From: Phycisphaerales bacterium | GTDB lineage: Bacteria > Planctomycetota > Phycisphaerae > Phycisphaerales > UBA1924 | Direction: 5' to 3' | Assembly (NCBI GenBank): GCA_020849615.1 | Contig: JADLFW010000009.1 | Location: 243,235-307,234, forward strand | DNA: 64,000 bases | Shown: positions 31,213 through 61,613 of the stretch, in pieces | How positions within the stretch are numbered: position 1 is the first letter of the stretch | Layout: each line of letters starts with the position of its first letter | Translations under genes and position numbers: made by a program | Notes under the pieces: generated by a model | What the model was told of the DNA's origin: nothing | Databases searched by the model: none | What the model saw: only the letters and a program-made list of their open reading frames with translations

Positions 31213-31245
31213 GTCGGTCTGCCCTTTACCGGGAACGTAGGCCCG

Positions 31246-35535: not shown

Positions 35536-35564
35536 CAGCCCGCCCTTCCAGATACGAATCCACG

Positions 35565-35590
35565 AGGCGCGGGCTCACGGGCCCGCGCCT
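35565..35590 (+). terminator. Hairpin between pstS and pstC
   Basis: AGGCGCGGGC (35565-35574) pairs perfectly with GCCCGCGCCT (35581-35590) over a 6-base loop. A 10-bp GC stem just after pstS, without a long T-run, may act as a partial terminator or 3'-stabilising hairpin. That would let pstS be made in excess over the permease genes. Confidence 0.55.
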
Positions 35591-35671
35591 TGCTTGATCG
35601 GGGGGCCCGACGGGGAGGCCGGTTGAAGGACGTCAGCGCGATGGAGCCTTGAAGCAGATGGAGCACCGCCA

Positions 35672-36595: not shown

Positions 36596-36598
36596 CCC

Positions 36599-38445: not shown

Positions 38446-39015
38446 TCAGGGCGATCCCGCCGGGCGCAGACCGCTGCGGCCGATCGTCACCGTCAGCGAC
38501 TTGGCCCGCACCGCCTTGCCGGAGACCGGTGTGAAGGTCGTGTGGAGCTCGGCGCTGCGGAAGTCCGTCCGGTCGGTGCCCTTCTCCAGCAGCGACAGCC
38601 GGACGACATAGCCGGGCCCGGGCGGCATCACCCGCACGATCGCCTCAGTTTCCTGCGGCGTCAGGTCCCACGCCGCGAGCGGGGCGCCGTCCGGCGCGTT
38701 GAGGGCGAAGTTGAACGCCCCCGGCACCTGGATCGACGCGCCGGGGAACTGATCGTCGAAGATGTACGCCGTCAGGCCGATCGTGTCGAGGTACCCGTTG
38801 CCGTCCGTATCCTCGGGAAAACTCGTCGAGACCAGGAGCGCTGATGCCTTGGCCCACTCCGGCTGCTTGGGCGGCGGCCTGTCGCGCGGCTCCGCCGAGA
38901 CGCAGCCCGCGGCGACGACGCCCGCCGTCGCGATGCACCCCGCCAGGCGCAGACCTCGCCAGCCGAATCGAATAGCGGTCATCAACGCCTTTCGGGGCCG
39001 CCGGGCCCGGTTCAT
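38446..39015 (-). CDS. Putative lipoprotein with calcium-loop-like motif, coupled to the giant secretin
   Basis: 189 residues. A lipobox AAGC ends at Cys 38 (another, LAGC, at 27). The mature part contains FPEDTDGNGYLDTIGLTAYI, where DTDGNGYLD matches a DxDxNGxxD calcium-binding loop of the EF-hand/dockerin type, followed by beta-rich sequence (IQVPGAFNFALNAPDGAPLA). The ATG at 39015 overlaps the stop of the giant secretin gene (ATGA), so the two are translationally coupled. Secretins often need a pilotin lipoprotein; that role is a guess from position and lipid anchor only, and no pilotin family is recognised. Confidence 0.75.
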   Translation of the reverse strand: MNRARRPRKALMTAIRFGWRGLRLAGCIATAGVVAAGCVSAEPRDRPPPKQPEWAKASALLVSTSFPEDTDGNGYLDTIGLTAYIFDDQFPGASIQVPGAFNFALNAPDGAPLAAWDLTPQETEAIVRVMPPGPGYVVRLSLLEKGTDRTDFRSAELHTTFTPVSGKAVRAKSLTVTIGRSGLRPAGSP

Positions 39016-42000
39016 GGTTTGCGCGGTGGCGCCGTCGCCGGTTCGATCACCGGCGTCTCGTCGGGCGCCCACGGGCCCGGCTGATCCGGCTGCGGAACCG
39101 GCTCGGCCTCCCGCTTGCGTTCGTCATCCAGCATCCGCTTGTAGGCCTTCAGCTTGGTCGGGTCCTCCATCCGCTCGATCAGCTGGCGGCTGAGCGCTTC
39201 CGCCCGCTCGATCCCGGCCGGGCCTTCGCCCGGCACCACCCGCGGGGTCAGGATTACCAGAAGCTCCGTCTTCCTGTTGGTCATCTGGGACGTCTGGAAC
39301 GGCAACCCCAGGATCGGGATATCGCCGAGGATCGGCACTTTCGTGCGCCGCTTCTCCTCCACGTTCTGAATCAGCCCGCCGATCACGACGCTCTGCCCGT
39401 CCTTGATCGTGACCGTGGTGTCGACGGTCCGCTTGTTGATCACCGGCGCCGAGAACGTCTCGGTGATCTGCGTGGTCCGGGCGCTGAGAGTCGAGATCTC
39501 CGGGCTGATCTCCATCCGGACGAACCCCTCATCGCTGATCGTCGGCGTGACGTTGAGGATGATGCCCACATCCTGCCGCACCACCGCAGACAGCGTGCCG
39601 CCCTGCGGTGTCCGTTCGACGCCGTCCGCCAGGGCGATGTTGTCGCCCACCTGGATCGACGCCTTCTGGTTGTTGTTGACCATCACCTGCGGGTTGCTCA
39701 GCACCTCGAGCTTGCCCTGCGCCGACAGGGCCCGGATCAGCAGCCCGAAGTCCGCGGACGAGATGGAGAAGTTGGGCACGCCGATCGCCGTGCCGACGCC
39801 GGGCCCGGTGGCCGTGTGGGCGATCTGGTACGCGTCGCCCCCGAAGGGTCCGACCTTGAAGTCCATGCCCCAGCTCTCATCGGCGTCGAGCGTCACCTCC
39901 GCCAGCAGCACCTGGATCATCACCTGCGGCGGCGCGGAATCGAGCTCCTTGATGATCTTGAGCACCCGCTCCATGTACCGCGGCGATGTGGAGACGACGA
40001 GCTTGTTGCTCTTCTCATCACCGACGACCGTGACCTCTTCCTCCAGCTGCTTCTGCAGCGACCCCGCCTGGGCGGCGCCGAGTGTCTGACGCTCGGTGGT
40101 GCTCTCATCCCTGAAGTACTTCTGGAGCGTGAGCTCGATGTCCTTGGCCTTGGCGTTGCGGAGCGGGTAGACGATCCGCTGTCGCTCGTTGGCCTCGATG
40201 TTGTCGATCTCGTTTACCACCCGGCGGACCAGCTCGAGGTACTCCTCCGTGCCCGACACGATCAGCGTGTTCGTGCGGGCGTCGATCGCCACCGAAAGCT
40301 GCTGCCGCTCATCCGGCACGGCCGTCACCGTCGTCCCCGACAGCCCCTGGCTCTCCGGCGCGGGCTCGCCCGTGCCGTCCTCGGCCGCCGGGCCCGGCCC
40401 GCGCGAGGGCACCAGCACGTACATGTTCCCCTGCTGGCGAAGGTTGAAGACATCCCTCAGCAGGTCGGCCATGATCCGGGCGTCGGCGTTCTGAAGCTGG
40501 AACGTCTCGATCTTGCGGCTGCCCGCCGACGTGGTGTCCAGGTCCACGATGAGCTCGGAGATCAGCTCGACCATCTTGGGGGGCGCGGCGATGACGATCG
40601 AGTTGGTCCGCAGGTCCGGCGTCAGCGTGACCTGGTCGCGGATCGCGCCGTCGACGTCGGCCTCCTTGGGCTGCTGGCCCAGCCGGCCCTCGAGCTGGCC
40701 CGCGACCTCATCGCGCATGAACCGCAGCTTCGTCGCCTGTCGCGAACCCAGGGCCCGGCCGCTGATCGGCCGCCCGGCCAGCACGTTCTCCAGAAGGTTC
40801 ACGAGCTCCAGGGCGTTGGCCGTGCGCAGCTCGATCCGCTTGACCTCCCGCACCGCCTGGACCTCCGCGCCGTCGAGCCGCGCGACCAGGCCGCGGATCG
40901 CCTGCACATCCGCGTCCGTCCCGCTCACAACGATCGCGTTGAGGCGGTCGTTGGCGATCACGCTGACGGAGTTGGCCCCGCGCCTGGCGTTCTCCTTGTC
41001 GACGTACAGATCCCGCAGCGACGCCGCCACCTCGGCGGCGGGCGTCTGGGAAAGCGTGATCAGCTCGGCCCGCTCCGCCCCGCTCATCCGCGCGGCGTCC
41101 GAGTTGAGGGCGTCCAGCAGCTCCTTGACCATCTGGAAGTTCTCATCGCTGGCCGCGACGATCAGGAGGCTGTTGGCGGGCTCGGCCTCGATGCTGAAGG
41201 CGTCGGCCGGGTTGCGCACCGCCCCCGACCTCGTCGCCGCGTCGATCCGCTCCCGCATGAGTTTCTCGATCTTGGGCGCCAGCTGCCGGACATCCGCGTT
41301 GCTGACGGAGATCACGTGCAGCCCCACCGCCGGGTTGGCCTGCTCCGCATCCAGCGTCTTCACCAGGCTGTCCAGGATCGCGAAACTCCGGACGCTCGTG
41401 CTCGCGACCAGCGCGTTGGTCCGGGCATCCGCGGTGATGACCAGCCGGTCCTCCGTCCGCAGCGACCCCGCCTGCTCCCGTTGGCGGAAGACATCGCGGA
41501 TCATCGTGGACACGCGGTCGGCGGCCGCGAACTTCAGCGGGAACACCCGGACCTCGTTCGAGGCCGCCGCGGCCTCGATGTCGAGCATCCCGACCAGTTC
41601 ACGCACCACCGCGATGTTGGCCGGCGTCCCCACCACGATGAGGCTGTTGCCCGCGTCGTCGGCGTTGATGACCAGTCCCGTCAGCGGCGCGAACAGGTCC
41701 GCCTCGATCTTCGCCGACGGGTCGGAGATGTCCTTGCCCGCCGCCATCATGCGCAGCCGCCCGTACTGCTTCTGCAGCCCGATCGCCTCGGGCGTCGTGG
41801 ACAGCCCGCGCACCAGCGTCTCGCGGAGGCGGTCCGCCAGCACCCGCGCATCGGCGAACTTCAGCTGGATGATCGCCGGCTCGATCCACTTCGACACCTC
41901 CGACGAGTCCAGGTCCTTGACCAGCACGTCGACCAGCGCCACCGCCTCCTCGCGGCCCGCCACGATCAGCGTGTTGGTCCGCTCGTCGACCGAGACCGCG

Positions 42001-45000
42001 ATCTCGCCCGCCAGCGCCTGGCCCGTCGCCGTGCTCGGAAGCCCCTGCCGCCGTGTACCCGGCAGGCGCCGCAGCGCCTCGCCCTGGCTGAAGAGCTGAT
42101 CGATCACGCTCTTCACCCGCACGCTGGAGGCGTTCTCCAGCGGGAACATGCGGATCACCACCGCATCGCCGATCGGCAGCGTGTCCAGCACCCGGATGAC
42201 TTCCTGCAGCGCCGCCACGTTGGCCGGCGTCGAGGCCACGATCACCGAGTTGGTTTCGGTATCCGCGATCAGCCGGATCGGCCGCGTCAGGTCGACCTTC
42301 AGGTCGCTCTGGTCGATGCCCGTCCGGGCCAGGCCCAGCCGCCGGATCTGCTCCGCCAGGGCCCGCGCCGGGCCCGTCTGGCTGTCCTGCGTCCCCGGCG
42401 TCAGCATCGACTGCACCGTCTTCACCAGCGGCGCCGCCGTAGCCAGCTTCAGCGGCACCACCGCCACCTTCTGATCGGCCTCGGTCGGCTCGGCGTCGAT
42501 CGCCCTGATCAGCTCCGTCACCGCCTTGCCGTCCGCCGGGCTCGCAAGGATCGCCACCGAGCGCCGCGTCGACAGCGGCACCACCACGATGGGCTCGCTC
42601 ACCACGCCGGGCCGGTCCGGCGGCTGGGGCTGGTTCAGCCCCATCTGGTCCAGGATCTTCTTGATGTCCTCGGGCGCGTTGTTCTGCACATCCACGATGA
42701 AGATGTTCTGGCCCAGCCGTCCCGAGCCCTTCAGTTCCTCATCGCCGGGCCCGCCCACCGCCGCCGCGTCCAGCTCTTCCACCACCTTCTCGATCTGCTC
42801 CTTCAGCCGCGGGCTGCACGCGATCACCAGCGAGTTACTCGTCCGGTCGATCTCGACCGCGATCGTCTCCCCCATCTGCTGGGCCGCGGGCGTGAACGTC
42901 GTCAGGATCGTCTGCCGCAGCCGGGCCGCCGGCACGTTCTTCAGCCGCAGCACGTGCGTCGTCATCCGGCCCGCCTCGCCCTGCTGCTGCAGGCTGTCGG
43001 CCAGGGCCTTGATCTGCGCGAACTCCTGCTCGGCCGCCCGCACCACCAGCGCCCCGCTGGTGTCGTCGCCGATGATCACCACGGCCCGCGGGCCCGTGGT
43101 CTGCCCCGCCGCTCCTCGCGGGCCCGCCGGGCCCAGGAACATGTCACGGATCGTCTGGGCGATCGTCGAGGCCTTCCCCGTCTTCAACGGGATCACCCGC
43201 GGCTCTGGCAGCTTCGCGAACCCAGGAACATCAATCTGCTTCACCACCGACTCGATCCTCACGAGGTCCTCGCGCGACGCGAAAACCACCAGCGAGTTGG
43301 TCAGGGCTTCCGCCGTGACGGTCGTCCCCGCCTCCCTCGCCAGGACCCGCGTCGATGGCTGCTCGTTGCGGTTCTGCCGCGCCCGCAGCTGGTCCAGCCT
43401 GATCTGCTCGGCCCGCGCCTGGTCCTCGGCGGGCGAGCGGAACCCCTCCGTCAGCGCCCGGGCCACGCTCTGCGCATCCGCGTGCATGAGGGGGATCACC
43501 GCCAGCTGGCGGGAGGTGTCGAACTCCTCCGTGTCCAGCTTGGACAGCAGCGAGCGGATCCCCTCCCACTCCTTCTCATCGGCGCTGATCACCAGCGCGT
43601 TGGAAGCCGGGTTGCTGACGATCGACACGTTGCGGGCGCCCGGGGTAGCCGCCTCCGGCGCATAGCGCCCGTAGAACACCTCCAGGGCCTTGGCGGTCTG
43701 CTCGGCGCTGGCGAACTGCAGCTTCAGGAACTCGGTCTTGCGGCCCACCACGGCCGGCACATCCAGCTCCTTCACCATCGCCGCGATCTCTTCGATCTGG
43801 TCCCCCGGCGCGGACACCACGAGCGTGTTGTCGGCCCGCGAGTAGTCGACCCCCGGCGAGGGCTCGCCCTGCGACCGCGGCCGGGCCCGCAGCATCAGGT
43901 CGATTGTGGACGCCACGTCCTCGGCCGCGGCGTCCTCCAGCTTGAAGCGGCGGAACACCAGCAGGCTCCGCACCGGCTCGGTGTCGATCTTCTGGATCTG
44001 GCCCATCACGAGATCGATCGCCTCCGCCGACCCCGTGAGCAGCAGCGTGTTGCTCCGCACGACCGGCGTGATCGTGACCTTCACGTTCGGCGGCAGCGCC
44101 GCGCGCAGCGCCGTGGCGACGTCCTGCGCCCGCGATTTCGTCAGCGCCACCGTCGCGATGTTGGCGGCCTCGGCGTCGGGCGCGGAGTCCAGCTCCTTCA
44201 GCAGCGCATCCACCTGGTCGAACATCGCCCCCGGCGCCGAGATCACCAGCGCGTTGGTGCTGGGCTGGGGCGTGATGATCACCTGCTCCTCGGAGCGGCT
44301 GGGCCTCGGGAACATGGACCGCAGCGTCGACGCGATGTCGGCCGCCACCGCGTTCTTCAGGGCGTACACCTCGATGCGGCGATCCGGGCTCAGCTCCGGC
44401 TGGTCGATCTGCGCGATCAGGTCCTTCAGAACCTTCATGCTCTCCTCGTCCGCCGAGGCGATCAGCACGTTGCCGTCCGGCGAACCGATCAGCGACACCG
44501 GCTGGTCGGGCAGACCCTGCGACCGGGCCCGCTCGACGAAGAACTGCCGCAGGCTCTGCGCTGCGCGGTCGGCCCGGGCGTGCTGCAAAACGATCGATTC
44601 GACCTTCCGCTCGCCGGCGGCCGCGCCGCTGTCGAGTTCCACGATGTACTTGGCGGCCTGCTCGATCCGCTCCGCCTTGCCCACCAGCACCAGGGCCCGC
44701 CTGAACTTGTCGAGCTCAACCGTCACCGAATCCGGATCCGCCCCGCGCCACGGCCGCCACCCCGGCGTCGCCATGGCCCGCTCGATGACCGCCTTGACGG
44801 CCTGCAGGTCGGCCCGCTCCACCTTGATCGCCCTCACGCCCACCTGGGCTCGGTCCGAGGCGGGCTGATCAAGCGCCGCGATCACCCGCTCCGCGGTCGC
44901 GAGCGCATCACCCTGCCCCATCAGCACGAGGCTGTTGGACCGCTCGTTGGACTCCACGATCACCCGCTCGGGGCCCTCATCCTGGCCCCGGCGCGACCAC

Positions 45001-48000
45001 TGCGTCTGGATCCGCTCCCACTGGAACTGGTCCGCCAGGTTGCGGATCGTCGGCTCCACATCCGCCACCCGCGCGTTCTTCAGCGGGATGATCTTGAACT
45101 GCATCGCCTGCGCCGAGTTGGGCGCATCGAACATCGCCACCAAGGACTCGATCTGCGCAAAGTCCTCATCCGAGGCCGCGATCACCAGCGTCCCGCTCCG
45201 CTTGTCGCCGACAATCGCGACGCGGTTGGAGCTCTTCTGGCCGGGCCTGGACGACACGGCCGCCCGGTCCTTGAAGAACGTCTGCAGCGCCGCCGCGACC
45301 GCCTGCGCATCGCCACGCTCCAGCTTCACCGAGCGCAGCGGCAGCCCCGTCGTCTCCGCCGAGTCGACCTGGGCCACCAGCTCCCGGATCTGCGCGATGT
45401 CCTCCTTCGAGGCCCGGACCACGAACACGCTCGACGCGTCATCCGCCGAGATCCGCACCTTGTCCTTCCTCGCGGGGTCCTTGCCGACGACCACCTGCTC
45501 CACCACCCGCTGAACCGTCGTGGGTGTCGCCTGCTGCAGCGAAATGATCGCCAGCTCCAGGCCCTTGTCCTCCGTGCTCGCATCCGCGGTCTTCAGGATC
45601 CGCTCGATCTCGCCGTGCTGCGGGTCCGAAGCCGTCACCAGCAGCGAGTTGGTCCGCTCATCCGCGATGAACCGCGCTTGCGGCAACTCCTGCGCCGCCG
45701 GGCCCTGCCGCTGCGCATCCAGCAGCTGCTGCAGCGTCTTGGAAAGCTCGTCGGCCCGCGCGTTGGTGAGGGCGTACCGCCGGATCGACAATCGGTCGGT
45801 CACCGGGCTCTGGTCGATCAGCGCCACGAACCGGTCGATCAGCGCGATGGCCTGCGGCGGCGCGGCCACGATCAGCGAAGCCCCGCCCGGGTCCGCCGTC
45901 ACCCGGATCGTCGCCGGATCGAGCCGCCCCGCCACGGCCCCGCCCTCGCCCTCGATCGTCACATCCAACGCCCGCACCCGCCGGGCCTGACGCCCCTGCG
46001 GCGCGGCGCTCACCAGGTCCGTCACCGCCTGCCGGGCCCGCGCCGCCGTGATGGAGCTCAGCGGGTAGATCTTCACCGTCAGCGGCGTCGCCTTGTCCAC
46101 CTGAGTCACCGCGGTGATCAGCTGGCCCACCGTCTCAAAGTCCGTCGGGTTCGCCAGCACGATCAGCGCCGCGCCCGCCGGATCGGCCATCACGCTGACC
46201 GGGCCCGTGAACCCGCCCGAGTTGATCGCCGACACCCGTCCGATCTGCTGCGTCGTCTGCTGCACCAGCTGCGCGATCTGCTGGGCATCCGCCGCCTGCG
46301 GCAGCGTGACCACGCGGACGCTCACCGGCTCGCGCGGCATCTGCTTCTCGAGCTCCGCCGCCAGCGCCGCCAACCGGTCGGTCATCCTCGGCGAACCCAC
46401 GATCAGCAGCGAGTTGCTCGCCGGATCAACGGCGATCGTCACCCCGCCCTCATCATCGTCCGGCTCCAGCACCGCCATCGCCGCCCCGGCCCGCCACTCC
46501 ACGATCTGGAACATCACACCGCCCGCGGCGGGGCGAAATCGAAACGGATCGCGCGGGTCCCCCGCGTCGCTCCTCGGCTTGCCGTCGGGCTTGCCGTCGG
46601 GCTTGTCGCCGGTCTTGTCGCCGGTCTTGTCATCCGCCTTGTCCGTTGGTCCCTTCTGCGACCGCAGCAGCTCCTCCGTCGAGATGACATCGACCTTCAC
46701 CCCGCCCTGCTGCTCCAGCAGCCGCTTGAGCGTCCGGGCCAGCAGCTCGGCGTCCACCCTCGACTTGTCCACCGGCACCATGCGCAGCTGCCGGCTCGTC
46801 GACAGTGTCGCCGAGTCGAGCTTCGAGGTCAGCTCCTCGATCGTGCTCATCTGCGCAGCGCTGGCCCGAACGATCAGCGAGTTGCTCGATCGGTCCACCC
46901 GCACCGTCGGCGCGATGTCCTGCGACTTGTCCTCGTCAAAGACCGCCTGGACGCTCGCCGCCAGCTCCGTCGCATCGGCGTTCTTCAGCGTGATGATCCG
47001 CACGGGCCGGTCGGCGCCCCGCCCCTTGATGGCCGGATCGACATCCAGCTCGGTGATGACCTGCTCGGCGATCTCCAGCACCGCCTTGGGCCCGCTCACC
47101 ACCACCGCGTTCAGCCGGTTCTCCGCCGCCACGCGGACCTTGGGCGTCCGGTCCTGCTCACCCCGCGCGTACGCCTGCGCCTTGGCCCACTCCGGCAGCT
47201 TGTCGATGATCGACTCGCGCGCCAGCACGGTCTCCAGCACCGGCGCGATCGCCTCCGCACGGGCGAACTTCAGGTAGACCGTCCGCACGCCCAGCCCGTC
47301 GGGTTCGACCGCCTCATCCATCGAGCGGATCAGCTCCATCGACTGCTCGATCGCCGCCGCCGATCCCGAGACCACCACCGAGTTGCTCCCCGGCTCGGGC
47401 GTGACGTTCACCGACGGATCGCCGGGCTTGGCCGACGCCGTCAGCGCCGTCTTCATCGCCGTCGCGACCGACGCCGCCTGCCCCTTCTTGAGCTGGAACA
47501 CCCGCACATCCACCGCCCGCTGGCCCACCGGCTGGTCCAGCGTCGCCACCAGCTGCTTCGCCAGCGGCATCATGATCGTCGGCACGCTGACCAGCAGCCT
47601 GTTCGAGGCCCGGTCCGCGTTCACCGCCGGCTGCGGCACCGACAGCCCGGCCTTCTCGGCGTGCTTGAGTTCCTCGGGCCAGCGCGAGCGGTCCGTGAGC
47701 ATCGCCTGCACCGTCGGCGCCACCGCCGCCGCGTCCGCATTGACAAGCGTCAGGACCTGCAGCTCCACCGCCGGCGTCGCCGGCGTCCGCTCATCCAGCT
47801 CGCCGAGGATCTTCACGGCGCCGGCCACCTGCTCCGCGGTCCCCAGGATCACGATGCTCCCGGTCTTCGGCTCCGCCGCCAGCTCGACCGGCACCCGCCC
47901 CTGCGGCAGCGTGGCGTTCCCGATCCTCGTGGCCGCCGCCGCCAGCGCCGCCGGGTCACCCCTCGACGGCGTGAACGTCAGCACCGTTCGGTCCGGCGTC

Positions 48001-51000
48001 TGCGATGGCTGGTCCAGCCGCTCGATCACCGACTTGGCCAGCTCCAGGCTCGCCGCCGGCGCCGAGATGATCAGGCAGTTCGTCCGCGTCTCGGCCTGCA
48101 CCCGGATCGCCGGCTTCTTGAACAGCTCCTGACGCGCCTGCCGCGCGTACTGCAGCTGCAGCGACAGGATCCTCGGGTCGGTCTCCTGCTGATCCACCAG
48201 CAGGCTCTCAACCGTCTTGGCGATCGTCGCCGCATCGGCGTGCTTCAGCGCGAAGGTCTCGACCGCGGGCGTCTCCGCCCCCACGGGCCGCACATCCAGC
48301 GGCCTGATCAGCTCCTCCACCTTCTTCAGGTCCGCCTCCGCGCCCGACAGCAGCAGCGCGTTCGATCCCGGCGCGGCCGTGATGCCGGGCCGGCCGCCGC
48401 TGGGCAGCTCGATCGTCGGCAGCGCCTGGTTCAGCGTCGTCGCCACCTGCCCCGCCTCCGCGTAGCTCAGTGGGATCACCCGGATCACGTTCCGCCCGAT
48501 CTCCGCCGTCTCCGCATCCAGCGTCTTGAGCAGCTCCTCCGCGATCCTCTGGATCGACTCCGGGGCCGAGATGATCAGCGTGTTCGAGGCGCTGTCCGCC
48601 GCCACATCCAGCAGCGACTGCACATCCATCACCGCCTTGCCATCCAGATCCTGCTGCTCCCGCAGCCGCGTCATCAATAGCTTGGTCATCAGCGGCGCCA
48701 GCCGCTCCGCCCGCGCGTGCTTCAGCGGGTACATCTTCAGCCCCGTGCCGGGCCCGTCCGGCGCCCCGTCCAGCCGCTGCAGCACGCTCTCAACCGCCGC
48801 GAACACCTCCGTCGGGCCGCTGACGATCAGGCTCCGCGTCGCCGGCTCCGTGTTGATCGTGATCGGCGCGTTCAGCGCCGCCGCCTGCCCCCCCGGGCCC
48901 GACAGCAGCGCGTTGGATGTCGCCAGATCCCGCAGCGTCGACGCCACCGCATCCAGGTTGGCCCGCCGCACGCGGTACGTCCGCAGCTCCACGTTGGCCG
49001 CCAGCTTCTGCTGGTCCAGGCTCTTGACAATCTGCTCGAACCCCGCCAGACGCTTGGCCGGCGCATCCACGATCAGCGAGTTGGTCGCCCGGTCGGCCCG
49101 GACCACGATCTCCCTCGGCTGCCTGAGGTCGGGCCGCGGCGCCCGCGTCCGCGGGTCCAGCGGGATCGGCGGCTCGGGGTACATCTGGTCGATCGTCTGG
49201 GCCAGCTCCTCGGCCCGCGCGATCTTCAGCGGGAAGATCCGGATCTCGCGCCCCTGCGCATCAGCCGCCTGCGTCTCGTTGAGCTCGGCGACGATCGCCT
49301 CGATTTCCTTCATCGCGTCCGGGTGCGCCGACACAATCAGCGTGTTGGTCGCCGCATCGGCCTGGATGTCGACAGGTTGCTTGCTCCGCTGCTCGACCGG
49401 CCGCTGGTCGAAGCTCCGCTGCAGCACCGCCGCCAGGTTCGCCGCATCGCTCGTCCTGATCTTCAGGATCCGCATCGGCGGCCGGTCCGCCGCCTGCCGG
49501 GAATCCAGCCCCTTCACCAGCCCCTCGATAACCGCGAACTGCGAAGGCTCCGCCGCCACCAGGATCGAGTTGGTGCTCTCGATCGGCTCGAACACCGGCT
49601 CCGGGCCGCCCCGGATCATCATCGACTCGCTGCTCTTGGCCATGTCGCCCAGGAACGCCACCACCTCCGCCGCCTTGGCCATCTTCAGCTCGATCAGCCG
49701 GATCTCGCGCGCCGGGCCCGTCTGCCGCTGCAGCTCCTCCATCACCTTCATGAACCGCTGCATGTCCTCCTGCGCGGCCACCACCATCAGCGAGTTGGTC
49801 TTCTCGTCGACCGAAACCTCGATCGGCTGTGCCCCCGGGATCTGCGCCACCTGCGCGTTGTAGATCTCCAGCGCCCGCCCCTTCACTTCCTCCGCCTTCA
49901 CGTTCGCGACCGGCACCACCCGCAGGCCCTTCTCGACCGGCACCGCCTGCAGGTCCTTCAGCACCGACTCCACCCGCTGGAACGTCACCTCATCGCCCGC
50001 CACGATCAGCGTCGAGCTCTTCGGCTCCGTCTCGATCACCACCTGCACCGGCGGCTTGCCGGGCTGCGCCGGGCCCGACAGGTTCCCCTGCCGATTCAGC
50101 GACTGCAGCGTCTGCGCGATCGCCTTCAGATCCGCCCCCACCACGCGGTAGGTCTTGAGCTCCGCGATCGGCGGCAGCTCCACGCGGTCCAGCTGCTGCG
50201 CCAGCGCCTGCAGCGACTCCAGCCGCCCCGCCGGGGCATCGATGATCAGCGAGTTGCTGCTCGCATCCGCCGAAACCGTGACCTCCTTGGGCTGCTGCAG
50301 CCACGGCATCGGCCGGTTCTGCCGGTCGACCGGCACCGGCGGCTGCGGGTACAGCTTGTCCATCGCCGCCGCCACATCGACCGCCTTGGCGACCTTCAGC
50401 GGGAACAGCTGCGTCACCCGCTCCGGCCCGTCCTTCTTCTCCCTGTTCAGGTCATCGACGAAGCTCTTGATGGCCTCGAACAGGTCGGGGTGCGCCGACA
50501 CGATCAGCGTGTTGGTCGCCGCGTCGGCCCGCACCTCCACCGGCTTGGCGGCCCGCTCGGTCTGCGCGCGCTGCCCGTACTGCTGGTTGAGCATCGCCGC
50601 GATCCCCGCCGCGTCCGCCGCCCGCAGCTGCAGCAGCTTCATCGGCGGAAGATCAGCCTGCAGCTTGTCCAGACGCAGCACCAGCTCCGCGATCAGTTTC
50701 TGCTGCGCATCCTCCGCCGTCACCAGCAGAGAGTTGGTCCGCTCCACCACCTGGATCGACGGATCGGGCAGCCGTCTCGACGGATCGATCGGGTCGGCGC
50801 TCTTCAGCAGCTCCGTCAGCGGGACCACGATGTCCGCCGCCTTCACGTTCTGAACATCGATGACCCGCGTCACCCGCTCCGGCGGCAGCAGCTGCTGCGC
50901 CTGGTTCAGCAGGTCCGTGAAGATCCGCATCCCCGCCGGCCGGGCCGAGATCAGCACGCTCCCCGATTTCTCGTCGTACTCCGCGGTGACGGGCCCGGCC

Positions 51001-53042
51001 TGGTCCTCGCTCATCCCCGCCGTCCGGTCGGCGTACAGCTTCTGCGTCCGCTCGAGCAGCGGCTTGGCGTCGGTCATCGGCACACGCACGATCCGCAGTT
51101 CGCGCCCGCCCGGCTCATCCGCATCCAGCCGCTTGAACAGCTCCTCCAGCGTCGCCATCTGCGCCGGCTGGGCCCGCACGATCAGCCGGTTCAGCTCATC
51201 CACCGCCTCCGCCACCGGCTCCACATACGCCGTCCCGTCCACCGGCGTGAGCAGCGGCTTGGCCAGGCGCGTGAGCTTCGGCGCAATCACGCTGGGCCGC
51301 ACCTTCGTCGTGGTGAACGACCTGGTCTCCAGGTCAACCTTCAGGTTCGCCTGCGCCGAGTTCAGCGCCAGTTCAAGCCTCGCGATGCCGGCCCGTGAGC
51401 CCACCAGAGTCACTGTGCGCGATTCGGGCTCGAGCGTCGCCGTCACCGGATCGATCGCGTTCTGCCCGGTCTGCTGGTCCAGCACGACCGCCCGCTGCAG
51501 CACCACCGCCGGGTCGCCCGAGGCGATCCTCACCAGCCTCACTTCCTTGTCCACCCGCGGCGCGATATCAACCCCCGCGACCAGCAATTCGACCGCCGCG
51601 ACATCCGCATCCGGGCCGCTGATGATCAGCCCCCGCCCATCCGGCGTCGCCGCCGTCCTGATCACGCCCTGCTGCCGCTGGCTCAGCAGCTTCCCGAGCA
51701 GCTGCTCGCACGCCTGCGGCGTCGTGTACGTCAGCTTCAGGACCGCCGTCCGCCGTTCCGGCGCCGCCGCCCGCGCCTGCCCCCCCGCCGCCGCGGCCGA
51801 TCCCGGATCGATCTCGCCCAGCAGCGCCGCCGCCTGCGTCAGCAGCGACACCGGCCCGACCACCGTCACCTTCCCCGCCTCCGGCAGCGGGATGATCACG
51901 GGCCGGCGATTCGCCGGCAGGTGCGCGAACAGCCCCGACACCTGCGCCGCCGCCTTCTCCGCGCTCAGCGACTGCAGCGCGAACGTCATCAGCTGCGTCT
52001 CCCCCGACGCCCCGTCCGGAGCATCCAGCAGCGTCACAAGTTCCTGCACCGTCTGGATCCGCGACGCCGGGCCCACGGCGACGATCGAGTTGGTCCTCGC
52101 ATCCGCGGCCAGGTTCAGCCCCTGCACCACCTGCTGGTCCACCGTCGTCTGCTTGCCGTCCTTGTCGACAAACGTGATCCGCTCACGCTGCCCCACCAGC
52201 CCCTTGAGCGCCCCCAGCACCGCATCCGCCTGCGCGAACTTGAGCGGGAACAGCTTGAACGCCGAGTCAACGGGCCGCACCGCGTCGATCGACTGCACGA
52301 TGTCCCGGATCCGCCGGCACTGCGCCGCCGTCTCCGTCACGATCAGCATGTTCTGCTGCGGCACCGCCACCACGCCGCCGAACGCGCCCACCAGCACCTT
52401 CACCTGCTCCGCCACCACCTCCGCCTTCGCGTTGTTCAGCGGCATCGTCACCGTCAGGATCTGGTCGGGCGTGATGCCGGGCGGAATCTCCTTCCCTTCG
52501 ACCTGGCCCGCCTTCTTCATCGAGTCCTGCAGCGACGCCAGGTACAGGTACTGCTCCTGCCTGCGCAGGTGCACCCCCCTCATCGCCAGGTTCAGGTTCA
52601 GGATGCTCAGGGCCTCGTCAAACGTGTACGGCGCAGCGCCGACAAACGTCAGCCCGCCCGCCGGGCACGGCGTCTCGAAGATCACCGGCAGCCCGCTCTC
52701 CCGCGCAAAGAAATCAATCACCTGGTCGAGCGGCGCCTCCTTGAAGTTGAACCGGATCGTCGCGCCGGGCCGGGCCGCGGGCTGCGCCGGAGCCGGAGCC
52801 GGGGCCGGGGCCGGGGGCTCCGCCTGCGCCGGCGCAGGCGCCTGGGCGGGGGGCTGAACCGGAGGCTGGGCCGGCGCCTCCGCCGGAGGCGGAGCGGGCG
52901 GCTGAGGTTGCGGTTGCGACTGGGGCTGAACGGGCGCCGCGGCCCCCGGCGCCGCCTCCTGGGCGAGCACCGACACCGGCAGCCCGGACGCTCCTACCAA
53001 CGACGCCGCGAGAATAGCCCTCGCCGTCCGTGGACGTGCCAT
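39012..53042 (-). CDS. Giant secretin (GspD/PilQ-like) with about 50 N-type domains
   Basis: About 4,676 residues. A signal peptide (ARAILAASLVGASGLPVSVL) is followed by a Pro/Ala/Gln linker (about 29-92) and an N0-like domain (about 95-172, IRFNFKEAPLDQVIDFFARE). Then come about 50 copies of a secretin N-type (NolW-like) domain of some 75-95 residues; each ends in a version of ADxxTNSLIVxAxP plus a helix closing on LD. The C-terminal secretin barrel domain (bases about 39,234-39,922) has VMIQVLLAEVTLD, VLSNPQVMVNNNQKASIQVG and KRRTKVPILGDIPILGLPF, all standard. A Glu/Lys/Pro tail of about 73 residues follows. AAGGAGG lies 6 bases before the ATG at 53042 (an upstream start at 53072 has none). 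Known GspD/PilQ/PulD proteins are about 650-750 residues. It is the last large gene of the gsp operon and forms the outer-membrane pore. Confidence 0.93.
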   Translation of the reverse strand: MARPRTARAILAASLVGASGLPVSVLAQEAAPGAAAPVQPQSQPQPQPPAPPPAEAPAQPPVQPPAQAPAPAQAEPPAPAPAPAPAQPAARPGATIRFNFKEAPLDQVIDFFARESGLPVIFETPCPAGGLTFVGAAPYTFDEALSILNLNLAMRGVHLRRQEQYLYLASLQDSMKKAGQVEGKEIPPGITPDQILTVTMPLNNAKAEVVAEQVKVLVGAFGGVVAVPQQNMLIVTETAAQCRRIRDIVQSIDAVRPVDSAFKLFPLKFAQADAVLGALKGLVGQRERITFVDKDGKQTTVDQQVVQGLNLAADARTNSIVAVGPASRIQTVQELVTLLDAPDGASGETQLMTFALQSLSAEKAAAQVSGLFAHLPANRRPVIIPLPEAGKVTVVGPVSLLTQAAALLGEIDPGSAAAAGGQARAAAPERRTAVLKLTYTTPQACEQLLGKLLSQRQQGVIRTAATPDGRGLIISGPDADVAAVELLVAGVDIAPRVDKEVRLVRIASGDPAVVLQRAVVLDQQTGQNAIDPVTATLEPESRTVTLVGSRAGIARLELALNSAQANLKVDLETRSFTTTKVRPSVIAPKLTRLAKPLLTPVDGTAYVEPVAEAVDELNRLIVRAQPAQMATLEELFKRLDADEPGGRELRIVRVPMTDAKPLLERTQKLYADRTAGMSEDQAGPVTAEYDEKSGSVLISARPAGMRIFTDLLNQAQQLLPPERVTRVIDVQNVKAADIVVPLTELLKSADPIDPSRRLPDPSIQVVERTNSLLVTAEDAQQKLIAELVLRLDKLQADLPPMKLLQLRAADAAGIAAMLNQQYGQRAQTERAAKPVEVRADAATNTLIVSAHPDLFEAIKSFVDDLNREKKDGPERVTQLFPLKVAKAVDVAAAMDKLYPQPPVPVDRQNRPMPWLQQPKEVTVSADASSNSLIIDAPAGRLESLQALAQQLDRVELPPIAELKTYRVVGADLKAIAQTLQSLNRQGNLSGPAQPGKPPVQVVIETEPKSSTLIVAGDEVTFQRVESVLKDLQAVPVEKGLRVVPVANVKAEEVKGRALEIYNAQVAQIPGAQPIEVSVDEKTNSLMVVAAQEDMQRFMKVMEELQRQTGPAREIRLIELKMAKAAEVVAFLGDMAKSSESMMIRGGPEPVFEPIESTNSILVAAEPSQFAVIEGLVKGLDSRQAADRPPMRILKIRTSDAANLAAVLQRSFDQRPVEQRSKQPVDIQADAATNTLIVSAHPDAMKEIEAIVAELNETQAADAQGREIRIFPLKIARAEELAQTIDQMYPEPPIPLDPRTRAPRPDLRQPREIVVRADRATNSLIVDAPAKRLAGFEQIVKSLDQQKLAANVELRTYRVRRANLDAVASTLRDLATSNALLSGPGGQAAALNAPITINTEPATRSLIVSGPTEVFAAVESVLQRLDGAPDGPGTGLKMYPLKHARAERLAPLMTKLLMTRLREQQDLDGKAVMDVQSLLDVAADSASNTLIISAPESIQRIAEELLKTLDAETAEIGRNVIRVIPLSYAEAGQVATTLNQALPTIELPSGGRPGITAAPGSNALLLSGAEADLKKVEELIRPLDVRPVGAETPAVETFALKHADAATIAKTVESLLVDQQETDPRILSLQLQYARQARQELFKKPAIRVQAETRTNCLIISAPAASLELAKSVIERLDQPSQTPDRTVLTFTPSRGDPAALAAAATRIGNATLPQGRVPVELAAEPKTGSIVILGTAEQVAGAVKILGELDERTPATPAVELQVLTLVNADAAAVAPTVQAMLTDRSRWPEELKHAEKAGLSVPQPAVNADRASNRLLVSVPTIMMPLAKQLVATLDQPVGQRAVDVRVFQLKKGQAASVATAMKTALTASAKPGDPSVNVTPEPGSNSVVVSGSAAAIEQSMELIRSMDEAVEPDGLGVRTVYLKFARAEAIAPVLETVLARESIIDKLPEWAKAQAYARGEQDRTPKVRVAAENRLNAVVVSGPKAVLEIAEQVITELDVDPAIKGRGADRPVRIITLKNADATELAASVQAVFDEDKSQDIAPTVRVDRSSNSLIVRASAAQMSTIEELTSKLDSATLSTSRQLRMVPVDKSRVDAELLARTLKRLLEQQGGVKVDVISTEELLRSQKGPTDKADDKTGDKTGDKPDGKPDGKPRSDAGDPRDPFRFRPAAGGVMFQIVEWRAGAAMAVLEPDDDEGGVTIAVDPASNSLLIVGSPRMTDRLAALAAELEKQMPREPVSVRVVTLPQAADAQQIAQLVQQTTQQIGRVSAINSGGFTGPVSVMADPAGAALIVLANPTDFETVGQLITAVTQVDKATPLTVKIYPLSSITAARARQAVTDLVSAAPQGRQARRVRALDVTIEGEGGAVAGRLDPATIRVTADPGGASLIVAAPPQAIALIDRFVALIDQSPVTDRLSIRRYALTNARADELSKTLQQLLDAQRQGPAAQELPQARFIADERTNSLLVTASDPQHGEIERILKTADASTEDKGLELAIISLQQATPTTVQRVVEQVVVGKDPARKDKVRISADDASSVFVVRASKEDIAQIRELVAQVDSAETTGLPLRSVKLERGDAQAVAAALQTFFKDRAAVSSRPGQKSSNRVAIVGDKRSGTLVIAASDEDFAQIESLVAMFDAPNSAQAMQFKIIPLKNARVADVEPTIRNLADQFQWERIQTQWSRRGQDEGPERVIVESNERSNSLVLMGQGDALATAERVIAALDQPASDRAQVGVRAIKVERADLQAVKAVIERAMATPGWRPWRGADPDSVTVELDKFRRALVLVGKAERIEQAAKYIVELDSGAAAGERKVESIVLQHARADRAAQSLRQFFVERARSQGLPDQPVSLIGSPDGNVLIASADEESMKVLKDLIAQIDQPELSPDRRIEVYALKNAVAADIASTLRSMFPRPSRSEEQVIITPQPSTNALVISAPGAMFDQVDALLKELDSAPDAEAANIATVALTKSRAQDVATALRAALPPNVKVTITPVVRSNTLLLTGSAEAIDLVMGQIQKIDTEPVRSLLVFRRFKLEDAAAEDVASTIDLMLRARPRSQGEPSPGVDYSRADNTLVVSAPGDQIEEIAAMVKELDVPAVVGRKTEFLKLQFASAEQTAKALEVFYGRYAPEAATPGARNVSIVSNPASNALVISADEKEWEGIRSLLSKLDTEEFDTSRQLAVIPLMHADAQSVARALTEGFRSPAEDQARAEQIRLDQLRARQNRNEQPSTRVLAREAGTTVTAEALTNSLVVFASREDLVRIESVVKQIDVPGFAKLPEPRVIPLKTGKASTIAQTIRDMFLGPAGPRGAAGQTTGPRAVVIIGDDTSGALVVRAAEQEFAQIKALADSLQQQGEAGRMTTHVLRLKNVPAARLRQTILTTFTPAAQQMGETIAVEIDRTSNSLVIACSPRLKEQIEKVVEELDAAAVGGPGDEELKGSGRLGQNIFIVDVQNNAPEDIKKILDQMGLNQPQPPDRPGVVSEPIVVVPLSTRRSVAILASPADGKAVTELIRAIDAEPTEADQKVAVVPLKLATAAPLVKTVQSMLTPGTQDSQTGPARALAEQIRRLGLARTGIDQSDLKVDLTRPIRLIADTETNSVIVASTPANVAALQEVIRVLDTLPIGDAVVIRMFPLENASSVRVKSVIDQLFSQGEALRRLPGTRRQGLPSTATGQALAGEIAVSVDERTNTLIVAGREEAVALVDVLVKDLDSSEVSKWIEPAIIQLKFADARVLADRLRETLVRGLSTTPEAIGLQKQYGRLRMMAAGKDISDPSAKIEADLFAPLTGLVINADDAGNSLIVVGTPANIAVVRELVGMLDIEAAAASNEVRVFPLKFAAADRVSTMIRDVFRQREQAGSLRTEDRLVITADARTNALVASTSVRSFAILDSLVKTLDAEQANPAVGLHVISVSNADVRQLAPKIEKLMRERIDAATRSGAVRNPADAFSIEAEPANSLLIVAASDENFQMVKELLDALNSDAARMSGAERAELITLSQTPAAEVAASLRDLYVDKENARRGANSVSVIANDRLNAIVVSGTDADVQAIRGLVARLDGAEVQAVREVKRIELRTANALELVNLLENVLAGRPISGRALGSRQATKLRFMRDEVAGQLEGRLGQQPKEADVDGAIRDQVTLTPDLRTNSIVIAAPPKMVELISELIVDLDTTSAGSRKIETFQLQNADARIMADLLRDVFNLRQQGNMYVLVPSRGPGPAAEDGTGEPAPESQGLSGTTVTAVPDERQQLSVAIDARTNTLIVSGTEEYLELVRRVVNEIDNIEANERQRIVYPLRNAKAKDIELTLQKYFRDESTTERQTLGAAQAGSLQKQLEEEVTVVGDEKSNKLVVSTSPRYMERVLKIIKELDSAPPQVMIQVLLAEVTLDADESWGMDFKVGPFGGDAYQIAHTATGPGVGTAIGVPNFSISSADFGLLIRALSAQGKLEVLSNPQVMVNNNQKASIQVGDNIALADGVERTPQGGTLSAVVRQDVGIILNVTPTISDEGFVRMEISPEISTLSARTTQITETFSAPVINKRTVDTTVTIKDGQSVVIGGLIQNVEEKRRTKVPILGDIPILGLPFQTSQMTNRKTELLVILTPRVVPGEGPAGIERAEALSRQLIERMEDPTKLKAYKRMLDDERKREAEPVPQPDQPGPWAPDETPVIEPATAPPRKP
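46581..46640 (-). repeat. 12-base tandem repeats inside the giant secretin gene
   Basis: GCCGTCGGGCTT occurs twice (46581-46604), then GTCGCCGGTCTT twice (46605-46628), then a variant GTCATCCGCCTT (46629-46640). They encode a charged KTGDKTGDKPDGKPDGKP-type linker between two N-type domains. Such perfect tandem units can change copy number. Confidence 0.85.
48760..51110 (-). repeat. Five-domain super-repeat, duplicated in tandem within the secretin
   Basis: Two adjacent blocks of about 1,160-1,175 bases (about 51,110-49,945 and 49,940-48,760) each encode five N-type domains in the same order. Matching landmarks are PPMKLLQLRAADAAGIAAML and PPMRILKIRTSDAANLAAVL, ADAATNTLIVSAHPD in both, LFPLKVAKAVDVAAAMDKLY and IFPLKIARAEELAQTIDQMY, and ELKTYRVVGADLKAIAQTLQ and ELRTYRVRRANLDAVASTLR. 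The array therefore grew at least partly by block duplication. Confidence 0.88.
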
Positions 53043-53095: not shown

Positions 53096-54082
53096 TCAGT
53101 TCAGCTGGCGTCGGGACGCCAGGGTTTCCCCGTTCCGGATTTCAAACCGCTTGCCGGCGATTTCGAACACCGCCCGGTCCACATCACCCGCGAGAAACCT
53201 CGCATCCAACACCGCCGCGCCGATCGCGACCGTTACCTTCTCGCTCGTCTTCGTATTCCGCATGAACGCCTCGGTCCCCGTCCGCCCCGTCACCACCCCC
53301 GTCAGCAGCCAATCCCCGTACGCGGGCGGCGAAGTCAGCGCCGCCGGCGCCGCTCCCACCTGCGGTGCCGCCGCGACCGTCACCGGACTCGCCGCCCCGG
53401 GCGCGGGCTCGCGGAACACGTTCTTGGCAACCACCGGGCCCCACAGCCGGTCCGCACCCCGGTCCGCCGCCACAATCGGCGGCGGCGACTTGGTCTCAAC
53501 AGCAAGGTCCGGCGTCATGATCGTCGCCACCTCGAGCTTCAGCGTAAACCGGTCCCGCTCCTTCCCCGCCGGCGTGATCGAGAACCCTTCGAAACGATGC
53601 ACCCACGACTGGGCCTGCACCGCGGCCACCGTCCGCATCACCTGCTCCAGCGTGCCCACACCCTTCACCTGGCCCAGCACCTGCTGGAAGTCGGGCCGCC
53701 CGGCCAGCTGCCGCTTGGTCGACGTCGGCAGGCTCTTGGACCGCCACGCCGGGTTACGCACCCCCTGCGGCGCCCCGGTATCGACCACGACCTGCCCCAG
53801 CCCGTTGCCCTCGGCGATGGTGCTCAGGCTCGTCCGGAACCAGTGCTCCACCTCATCCCGCTTCTGGCCCAGCGTCGTCACCCCGAACGCCTTCAGCCGC
53901 TTGCGTACCTCGAACTGGTCACGCATCCCCTCATCCAGCCGGTTGATATCCGCGTTGATCTCCGCCAGGCTCGCCAGCAGCTTCTCCCGCGGGCCGGCGT
54001 ACTGCGTCCGGTACGCGTAATACCCCGCGCCCCCGATGAGCAGCACCACGCCCGCGATCTTGAGCCGCCGGGCCAGGCTCAT
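53096..54082 (-). CDS. GspM/PilO-like protein fused to a GspC/PilP-like C-terminal domain
   Basis: 328 residues. One N-terminal membrane helix (IAGVVLLIGGAGYYAYRTQY) and a coiled-coil stretch (KLLASLAEINADINRLDEGM) resemble GspM/PilO. After a mixed domain (about 110-215) the C terminus (about 232-325) has VVAKNVFREPAP, then YGDWLLTGVVTGRTGTEAFM and KVTVAIGAAVLDARFLAGDV. This is the layout of the GspC homology region/PilP domain, which touches the secretin N0 domain. It appears to combine two subunits in one chain. Its start overlaps the preceding gene (ATGA) and the secretin starts 53 bases after its stop. Assignment is by architecture and position, not by strong family motifs. Confidence 0.7.
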   Translation of the reverse strand: MSLARRLKIAGVVLLIGGAGYYAYRTQYAGPREKLLASLAEINADINRLDEGMRDQFEVRKRLKAFGVTTLGQKRDEVEHWFRTSLSTIAEGNGLGQVVVDTGAPQGVRNPAWRSKSLPTSTKRQLAGRPDFQQVLGQVKGVGTLEQVMRTVAAVQAQSWVHRFEGFSITPAGKERDRFTLKLEVATIMTPDLAVETKSPPPIVAADRGADRLWGPVVAKNVFREPAPGAASPVTVAAAPQVGAAPAALTSPPAYGDWLLTGVVTGRTGTEAFMRNTKTSEKVTVAIGAAVLDARFLAGDVDRAVFEIAGKRFEIRNGETLASRRQLN

Positions 54083-55677
54083 TTAGCCTTCTCCTTGCCC
54101 GCCGGCGCCGGCGCGGCGGGCGGCGGCGCCGCCGGCTTGGGCTCGGGCTTCTCGACCTTCTCCGCTGGCGTCGCCTGCGTCGTCAGCAGCGACAGGCTGA
54201 ACTTGTCGGGCACATCAGGACCCTTGTTCTCCACGGTGTACAGCTTGCTGTTCATCAGCCGGCCCCGCAGGTCGGCCGCCACATCCCGGTGGTTCACCCG
54301 CCCCCGCACCACGAACTCCAGCAGCTGCTGGGCCGTCCAGTCATCATCCACGAACTCGCTCTTCTTCGGCGAGAACGACACCTCCGCGCTCGCCACGCGA
54401 CCGCTGATCTCATCCGCCGTCGCCTGCCGCGGGTCCGGAAGCTGCTCGTTGATGGCGCTCAGGTGCGCCAGCCAGTCCACCTTCACCGACCGCCACCGCT
54501 CCAGGTGATTCACCCGCAGGAACTCGATCTGGTACCGCTCGTACTCATCCCGCCGCTCGGTTTGAGTCTGCTTCGCCGCCGCCACCCGCCGCGCCAGCGC
54601 ATCGAGGCTCTGCTGCGCCAGCACCCACGATGTGCCCGAAACCAGGATCGCCCCCAGCACGCCCAGCAGCACCCGCTGACGACGGATCGCCGACGGATCC
54701 ACCGCCTTCTTCGTGTTGGCAAAGTCCAGCCGCGGACGGTCCAGCGCCTCCTCCAGCACCATCCCGATCAGCGCCGTCGCCGCCGCCCGCTCCCGCGGGT
54801 CGATCGACGAGGCAAACTCCGTCCCGGCCGGCGCCGCCACCGGCTCCCACGGCACTTCCAGGGCCTGCTCCGCACGCACCCCCACCGCCGATGCCAGCTC
54901 AGGCTCCACCACCACCGCGATCATCTGCACCGGCGAGGAGCCCCGCGCCCCCTGGTAGCTCATCCACGTCCGCTTCGCCTCCACCGCGATCCGCTCCGCA
55001 TACGCAGAAACGTCCTCATCCGCCCCGGGCCGCACGATGTCCACCGCCCGCGCGAACACCATCTGCCCATCCCGCACCACCACAAACTCCGCCGATGCCC
55101 ACCCCGGAGCGATCCCCAGCACCGGGCCATCCCGACGCTGCGAAATCTCACCCAGCAGCGCAGCCACACCGCAGCAGCGCAGGCCGATCCGGTGCAGATT
55201 CAGCCCGGCCGCGCGGGCCATGGCCCGGCACCAGTTCACCCGGTCGGCCGGCATCGCGCCCGCCAGCACCGCCACCGTCGCCAGCTGCCCGCCCTCCGCC
55301 GGCTTCTCCGACAGCTTCGCGTAATCGATCGCCGTCCCCTCGAGCGGCATCGTCAGCTGCCGGGACATCTGCAGCCTGACCGCCCCCGCCAGCTCCGCAT
55401 CCGACATCCCCGCCGCAACCGGAAAGTCCATCGATTTCAGAACGACATCGCTCCGCGACACCGCCAGCAGCGCCCGGTGCCGGTGCAGCCCCGCCTTCCG
55501 AAGCTCCTCACCCACCCACCGGCCCACTGCCTCGGCGTCATCCGCCGCCACACCCTCCGGCCGGGCCGCCGCCAACCACGTCCGCGCCGCGATCTTCGAC
55601 CCCGCCACCGAGGCCGACAGCACCGACAGGCGCGGGCCGTCCAGATCGATCACGTTCAGCGGCTGCCTCGAACCCAT
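54079..55677 (-). CDS. GspL-like protein: PilM-like domain plus PilN-like domain
   Basis: 532 residues. Residues 1-320 look like an actin-fold PilM/GspL cytoplasmic domain (LNVIDLDGPRLSVLSASVAG; GPVLGIAPGWASAEFVVVRD). A membrane helix follows (VLLGVLGAILVSGTSWVLA), then a coiled coil (LDALARRVAAAKQTQTERRD) and a PilN-like periplasmic part with a Pro/Ala/Lys tail. In type II systems GspL links the ATPase GspE in the cytoplasm to the membrane complex. It starts 10 bases after gspK and overlaps the GspM/C-like gene by ATGA. Family motifs are loose but the layout and position are consistent. Confidence 0.75.
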   Translation of the reverse strand: MGSRQPLNVIDLDGPRLSVLSASVAGSKIAARTWLAAARPEGVAADDAEAVGRWVGEELRKAGLHRHRALLAVSRSDVVLKSMDFPVAAGMSDAELAGAVRLQMSRQLTMPLEGTAIDYAKLSEKPAEGGQLATVAVLAGAMPADRVNWCRAMARAAGLNLHRIGLRCCGVAALLGEISQRRDGPVLGIAPGWASAEFVVVRDGQMVFARAVDIVRPGADEDVSAYAERIAVEAKRTWMSYQGARGSSPVQMIAVVVEPELASAVGVRAEQALEVPWEPVAAPAGTEFASSIDPRERAAATALIGMVLEEALDRPRLDFANTKKAVDPSAIRRQRVLLGVLGAILVSGTSWVLAQQSLDALARRVAAAKQTQTERRDEYERYQIEFLRVNHLERWRSVKVDWLAHLSAINEQLPDPRQATADEISGRVASAEVSFSPKKSEFVDDDWTAQQLLEFVVRGRVNHRDVAADLRGRLMNSKLYTVENKGPDVPDKFSLSLLTTQATPAEKVEKPEPKPAAPPPAAPAPAGKEKAK

Positions 55678-58968: not shown

Positions 58969-59050
58969 CGCCCGTGATTCACATCCCCGATGGCGCACGG
59001 GTGTCACCCTCCGTGCGGCCCGCGACGACGCCCCCACGCCCCGGCGCAGG

Positions 59051-61552: not shown

Positions 61553-61613
61553 AAACGAGGCGGCCGCCCGCCGGCAGCCGCCACGTTCGGGACTCAACTC
61601 TAGGCCGCGACCG

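Follow-up and report, generated by a model that had tools for sequence, protein, structure and literature searches.

The window, a stretch of 64,000 nucleotides from a Phycisphaerales bacterium, carries on its minus strand one giant open frame (39012..53042) which runs from an ATG at 53042, preceded by AAGGAGG, to a stop at 39012 and encodes a GspD-type secretin of 4,676 amino acids and 500.6 kDa. A first-pass annotation, made from the letters of the DNA alone, had described a single frame of about 4,676 codons with a ribosome site, a signal peptide, an N0-like domain, about 50 N-type domains and one ordinary secretin C-terminal domain in a planctomycete host, and each of these parts was found again. 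The assignment of the frame draws on Pfam and on NCBIfam, of which the best-scoring model is type_II_gspD. A putative signal peptide, recognised by eye from a basic start, a hydrophobic core and VLA-Q, covers approximately residues 1-29 (52956..53042), and it is followed by the N0 domain at about residues 105-185 (52488..52730), placed with a profile (A6) against the solved N0-N1 region of GspD. Residues 199-4373 (39924..52448) form an array of N1-type (Secretin_N) domains, which is interrupted mid-array, within domain 25, by an insert of about 68 residues with a hydrophobic stretch (approximately residues 2131-2198; 46449..46652). The secretin barrel at residues 4438-4603 (39234..39731) matches PF00263 with 161.5 bits (E 1.9e-47), and its nearest solved chains are those of GspD.

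The number of N domains was obtained with a domain model iterated on the repeats of the giant protein itself, which counts 50 contiguous domains with all 49 junctions being of 13 residues or fewer. This number exceeds the usual secretin architecture of N0 plus one to five. The Pfam check proposed in the first-pass annotation came out in part: the scan returned 47 Secretin_N stretches and one Secretin domain in the giant, while STN (PF07660) gave no match at E ≤ 1, and the AMIN domain likewise gave none at that threshold.

The giant gene stands at the end of a run of genes with the order F-G-H-I-J-K-L-M-D, all in one direction and with gaps of -4 to 155 bases, and E is divergent. The inner-membrane platform GspF (59728..60918, minus strand) matches T2SSF at E 1e-50, and the NCBIfam GspF model is its best but stays below the cut-off. 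The major pseudopilin GspG (59051..59557, minus) is recognised by T2SSG at E 7e-22 and by the NCBIfam gspG model with 106 bits, above the cut-off of 88.85. Next to it lie, on the same strand, the GspH-position minor pseudopilin (58339..59037), assigned from its N-methylation motif, and the GspI-position gene (57869..58342), which has a pilin-like start and is placed from sequence and position only, without a Pfam match at 0.01. The GspJ-like minor pseudopilin (57252..57872, minus) has the N-methylation motif and matches T2SSJ at E 5.6e-5, below the cut-off of that model. The minor pseudopilin GspK of 522 amino acids (55687..57255, minus) reaches 26.6 bits with T2SSK, for which the cut-off is 24.2, and the GspL-like protein of 532 amino acids (54079..55677, minus), of the PilM_2 fold family, reaches 33.9 bits against a cut-off of 27. 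The divergent GspE ATPase (62709..63998, plus strand; T2SSE E 1e-99, MshEN) is truncated by the contig end, which is also the end of the window.

The gene in the GspM position (53096..54082, minus strand; 328 amino acids) is assigned from its place and its conservation beside the giant, and the protein has no significant Pfam match. No GspC was found. The C-terminus of the GspM-position protein looks like an HR domain by eye, and an HR/GspC domain was considered there but not retained, as the profile scans gave no significant match (the best was T2SSB with E 0.017, for a single row of the 24). On the other side, a lipoprotein gene (38446..39015, minus strand), whose ATG overlaps the stop of the giant as ATGA, is conserved and adjoins the giant in 26 of 56 stretches in which it was looked for. 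In the alignment of these lipoproteins (A5, 18 rows) one Cys is invariant and there is a D.DGNGYPDT-like motif. The protein matches nothing in Pfam or the PDB, and by its position it is a candidate assembly factor.

The association of the giant with type II secretion genes recurs in other genomes. At least one such gene adjoins the giant in 16 of 20 further giant loci; the four loci where none does are L015, L018, L021 and L023, and the upstream DNA is short in L018 and L023. In the genome of L015 (G046), GspL (contig C15, 53301-54800) is separated by about 17 kb from the giant downstream of it, so that the gene cluster is interrupted there. Among 38 hand-picked genomes the GspL of the cluster was present in all 24 with the giant and in none of the 14 without it (E ≤ 1e-5). 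Around the cluster in the window, a glutathione-peroxidase gene (60959-61747) adjoins GspF and is also found near GspF in L031, L032 and L033. Beyond the lipoprotein gene lies a phosphate-transport-like set on the plus strand (34426-38436; substrate-binding protein and permease by Pfam, the rest by eye), and the minus strand encodes 2-oxoglutarate dehydrogenase subunits at 29935-34200.

Both ends of the giant resemble solved GspD chains. The N0-N1 profile (A6, 28 rows) is co-linear with solved GspD, the best being 5wq7_A at E 1.8e-24; the Pfam model of the GspD N0 domain matches 16 of these 28 rows at E ≤ 0.1, the row of the window not among them. The C-terminus is matched by GspD 5wln at E 1.4e-41, ahead of PilQ at E 3.6e-22, and a mid-array profile over domains 24-27 also matches N domains of solved GspD chains (best E 5.8e-10). 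The NCBIfam GspD model TIGR02517 gives 1,239 bits against a cut-off of 351, a score summed over 23 repeat stretches, of which the best single one aligns residues 4176-4606 of the giant with model positions 160-593 of 600. Solved GspD (5wq7, 5wln, 6hcg, 5zdh) and the giant are alike in having N0, N1-type domains and a barrel, in the co-linearity of both ends and in the type II secretion neighbourhood. They differ in scale, as the giant has 50 N1-type domains in 4,676 amino acids whereas the solved type II secretion chains listed have 657 or fewer. An ordinary GspD has N1-N3.

The giant sits at the end of a run of type II secretion genes, and therefore it is, as judged from sequence and gene order, the GspD of that cluster. 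Its parts belong to this known kind. Hence the proposal of the first-pass annotation that the locus holds an undescribed system does not stand, and a new secretion system was rejected in favour of GspD given the type II secretion neighbours and the GspD-like N0-N1 and C-terminus. The filament that had been suggested likewise finds no support, since the barrel and N0 lie at their usual two ends. It is decidedly improbable that the giant instead serves a type IV pilus or an uptake machine as its secretin, with a tube that would guide a pilus or import macromolecules. The NCBIfam PilQ and SctC models do exceed their cut-offs on the giant, because their scores are summed over many repeats. The GspL carries a PilM-type domain, and crateriform structures with fibres and the uptake of macromolecules are described for other planctomycetes (PMC5394234). 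Against such a role stand the GspG above its equivalog cut-off, the GspK, the gene order and the closeness of N0-N1 and the C-terminus to solved GspD. The marks of PilQ, namely AMIN domains and a type IV pilus gene context, are absent, and the context is that of type II secretion. Databases name the giants 'type II secretion system protein D', 'secretin N-terminal domain-containing protein' or hypothetical. The own genome of the giant has 10 secretin matches, and its ordinary secretins share the Secretin domain with the giant; the other frames have about 650-1,200 amino acids, except for a fragment of 99 at a contig edge.

Long repeats misassemble easily, so that a frame of this kind might be an artefact of assembly or annotation, or a decaying repeat gene. 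We give this reading next to no credence. Tandem Repeats Finder, run with periods up to 500, found no tandem DNA repeat of a period above 36 in the giant gene, and hence none of domain length; a 12-base tandem repeat at 46576-46631 falls inside the insert of domain 25. The identity between domains within the giant is low, with a mean of 25% and a maximum of 45%, whereas the same positions compared with four homologues of 50 domains (P0003, P0025, P0036, P0060) have median identities of 53-65%, and in these four the own counterpart is the best match at 50 of 50 array positions. The order of the domains is also kept in the other seven of the 11 homologues compared, which have either parses shifted by one or two (P0058, P0109, P0121) or missing blocks: P0023 and P0027 lack approximately domains 18-21, and P0037 and P0105 lack some five to seven in the region of domains 5-17. 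Over the whole frame, dN/dS (Nei-Gojobori) is 0.19, 0.15 and 0.10 in three same-genus pairs of relatives, and every window of 400 codons in these pairs stays below 0.5. Similar frame lengths occur in many independent genomes, some of which consist of a single contig. The array positions of the giant are old and conserved, and the misassembly that the first-pass annotation had named as a danger to its reading was rejected along with a recent repeat expansion on the lack of long-period repeats, the low inter-domain identity and the purifying selection.

Two loci could be held in favour of an artefact. At 2168-18250 of L058 (G051), three frames of 1,519, 1,710 and 2,199 amino acids overlap one another and would jointly form an array, which may reflect assembly frameshifts or decay; a natural three-gene split was rejected because the frames overlap, which makes frameshifts the likelier cause. 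In L030 (G058) a single in-frame stop near 9457 cuts the array at the insert of domain 25, and a basic and then a hydrophobic stretch follow; this locus, too, was left out of the natural splits.

When 1,368 candidates from a protein search were scored, 488 proved to be homologues at E ≤ 1e-3. The 120 matches listed, the giant of the window included, have 4,050-4,897 amino acids, and the similar length in related genomes that the first-pass annotation had proposed as a check was therefore obtained, with one frame in these relatives. The domain count among these 120 is 50 in 59 proteins, 46 in 21 and 43-53 in the rest, and the counts of 49 and 51 may partly reflect parsing. The model of the window undercounts in distant families, since it misses divergent domains, and family-specific iteration was used for those. 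Secretins were found in all 61 genomes searched from the own genome, family and order, many of them, among the matches listed, with a frame of 2,400-5,018 amino acids. In a sample of the class, the C-terminal query finds a match at E ≤ 1e-45 in 107 of 198 genomes, and 50 have a frame of at least 2,000 amino acids (range 2,381-6,169). In a sample of the phylum, in which scoring was limited to the best eight candidates per genome, 40 of 294 genomes match at E ≤ 1e-38, and none of the 28 outside the class has a frame longer than 1,341 amino acids. Across these samples, frames above 2,000 amino acids are confined to the class of the window, which we take to be Phycisphaerae, as the MAGs of the named relatives bear the names Phycisphaerales, Phycisphaerae or Planctomycetota. 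Its occurrence within the class is patchy: among the genomes of the class sample that lack a C-terminal match, 22 picked by hand have secretin frames of at most 1,544 amino acids. Two giants, P0233 of 3,846 and P0237 of 4,068 amino acids, carry the source names Methylomirabilota and Pedosphaera, either from misnamed bins or from transfer, and these names count against a strict confinement of giants to one class. Also, L088 (QWIH01000003.1), titled Leptolyngbya sp. PLA1, has 64% identity to the C-terminus of the window's giant, and its name looks wrong.

It is likely, on the analysis as a whole, that the giant is a type II secretion GspD whose 50 N1-type domains stack as rings into a very long periplasmic conduit. 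About 15 copies would assemble, as in solved GspD, with N0 remaining at the platform of the inner membrane and the barrel lodged in the outer one. By analogy with known secretins, the rings of N domains would stack between both membranes without gaps, since neighbouring domains are joined by so few residues. Rings of GspD are spaced by 2.5-3 nm. With 50 rings at 2.5-4 nm each, the conduit would measure approximately 0.12-0.2 micrometre, the upper value of about 4 nm per ring being an estimate from the 35 nm channel of the six-ring PilQ of Thermus. Such a conduit would let the platform and the pseudopilus formed by GspG work across the enlarged periplasm of planctomycetes, and the number of N domains would act as a length setting that is altered by blocks of about four to five domains. 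In the array of the window, the clearest internal duplication is that of domains 8-11 and 13-16, with an offset of 5.

The closest precedent for the proposed mechanism is PilQ of Thermus thermophilus, in which extra N rings are stacked across a wide periplasm. In two structural studies, this protein has 757 amino acids and assembles from 13 protomers into six stacked rings, N0-N5, with a channel of about 35 nm, and the rings span most of the wide Thermus periplasm according to the authors (PMC5745081, PMC4463427). The difference is that PilQ is a type IV pilus and DNA-uptake secretin of six rings, whereas the giant has 50 N1-type domains and lies in a type II secretion cluster. An enlarged periplasm is described for planctomycetes studied by tomography, in a paper whose text makes no mention of Phycisphaera (PMC5394234). 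A periplasm width for the organisms of the present loci was not found in the open-licence literature searched.

Instead of stacking throughout, the extra N domains could form a long flexible or folded-back periplasmic tether or scaffold, for example one that anchors the outer-membrane barrel to the inner membrane or binds cargo, with only the first and last few domains forming rings. Known secretin structures have few rings, several N domains of the giant have long loops, and in Thermus PilQ the spacings of the rings vary and the cap rocks (PMC5745081). This reading is nevertheless unlikely. The junctions stay at 13 residues or fewer throughout the 50 domains, low-complexity tethers are missing except for a few inserts, and every array position is conserved separately, which counts against a plain spacer, for which no such conservation is needed.

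The array is modular and is not always encoded in one frame. At all 13 loci of two families, f17 and f19 (L024, L047-L056, L063, L064), the array is encoded by two adjacent genes. The upstream protein has N domains but no barrel and has 2,600-3,084 amino acids where complete; it is incomplete in L051, L055 and L063, and a masked stretch interrupts it in L064. The downstream protein of 1,511-1,843 amino acids begins with a signal-like stretch of its own and continues with 12-17 N domains to the barrel. With the family model, the last match of the upstream protein is the first half of an N domain only at 13 of 13 loci, and the first match of the downstream protein is the second half only at 10 of 13, starting from model position 16-18 in the other three (L049, L050, L051). 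These half-domain matches are weak singly (between -1.8 and 19.9 bits for the upstream proteins, between 3.0 and 18.3 for the downstream ones), and half-only matches occur elsewhere in the proteins of the two families (four first-half and at least 13 second-half, among 496 matches), so that the claim of a cut within one domain rests on the regular place rather than on the scores. A single N domain thus appears to be divided between the two proteins. Related genomes with a split frame, which the first-pass annotation had listed against its own reading, do therefore exist, in both of these families; yet all 13 loci have the regular two-gene form with its cut within one N domain, which speaks for a continuous array. 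The division of this domain between two proteins also speaks for the two halves of the array remaining together as one object.

A corresponding place is marked in relatives with a single frame, of which 60 found with an f8 protein were taken (P0123-P0182). These f8-type proteins have an insert 14-15 domains before the barrel. In the 46 that could be parsed, [AVSTG]-x-[AG]-Q follows the hydrophobic core in 45 (shuffles 11%), the 13-residue core reaches a mean Kyte-Doolittle value of 1.5 in 43 (shuffles 12%), and the residues before the core carry a mean net charge of +2.3; one of these inserts, that of P0182, is probably the other of the two insert sites in these proteins, assigned wrongly. The other 14 all have a similar stretch by a looser best-of-region scan, and in 13 of them the model ran through the insert as one long domain. 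A second insert of the f8-type proteins, after domain 9, has the Q motif in 32 of 58 (shuffles 5%), but 31 of 58 reach hydrophobicity 1.5 against 44% of shuffles and the net charge before it is negative. Hence, as a signal peptide, this site was judged weak. In a tree of 37 barrel sequences, the one-frame families f8 and f22 group with the two-gene families f17 and f19, apart from the group of the window (f1, f2, f4; 100/100). In this, relatives of the giant differ from solved GspD: their array is spread over two genes or bears internal signal-like stretches.

In the family of the window the corresponding signal is fainter. The insert of domain 25 has a mean best hydrophobic window of 1.73 against 0.16-0.84 in six other long loops, a comparison in which 30 of 59 proteins were parsed. 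Of the 120 listed, 89 inserts were parsed and 31 were not; 75% of the parsed ones beat shuffles at 0.05, and in 79 of the 89 the charge is higher before than after. The cleavage-like motif has a frequency of 0.40 in this insert and of 0.00-0.64 in control loops, the highest being that of domain 48. As the motif is no commoner than in the controls, the motif test does not support a cleavage of the window's own protein, and the motif was set aside for this family. In the window 25 domains follow the insert-bearing domain, and an equal number does so in L025, which has 41 domains; this suggests that the insert site is one old site. The chain of the window looks like a fused form with a weakened hydrophobic stretch.

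The split two-gene form and the signal-peptide-like stretch at that place indicate that, in the two-gene families and in relatives with a strong internal stretch, more than one chain probably goes into the conduit. A wider reading is that in all families, including that of the window, signal peptidase cuts the internal stretches after export and the resulting two or three chains pair through split N domains into a modular tube. This is a possibility of some weight, although we lean away from it. It draws on the matching place of the cut in the two-gene families, whose downstream gene begins with a signal peptide, and on the basic stretch, the core and the A-x-A/G-Q motif of the f8-type inserts, as well as on the Q motif of the insert after domain 9. 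It is weakened by the core of that second insert, which barely differs from shuffles, by the negative charge before it, and by the weak stretch of the window's own family. As one model, a modular polyprotein secretin in which one frame or two genes yield two or three chains that are exported, rebuild the split N domains and form a tunnel of some 50 stacked rings and more than 100 nm, with the ring number setting the distance between the membranes, is rather doubtful. The best reading remains a long stacked-ring conduit made of one to three chains, for which we infer stacking, length and cleavage.

No description of a giant secretin was found in the open-licence literature searched, nor were its size, the conserved ring number, the two-gene cut within a domain or the internal signal-like stretches found there. 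If the domains stack, it would exceed every known secretion conduit in length by a wide margin and redefine the reach of double-membrane machines. With the giant one can test directly what determines how wide the planctomycete periplasm is, a matter of debate in the cell biology of these organisms. A gene boundary that falls naturally within an N domain provides an experiment, already set up, on the assembly of secretin rings, and the internal signal-like stretches prompt one to ask whether bacterial envelopes contain polyproteins. Since the domain number is conserved in one family (mode 50), the length idea can be tested across species with 22 to 63 domains. The longest frame, in L022 (G101, contig C18), has 6,169 amino acids, or 6,150 in the stretch analysed, and 63 N domains. 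A second class of long secretins, of approximately 1,534-1,728 amino acids, was seen in G009, G038, G039, G040, G043, G047, G055, G059 and G147, and where both are listed it lies on different contigs from the giant.
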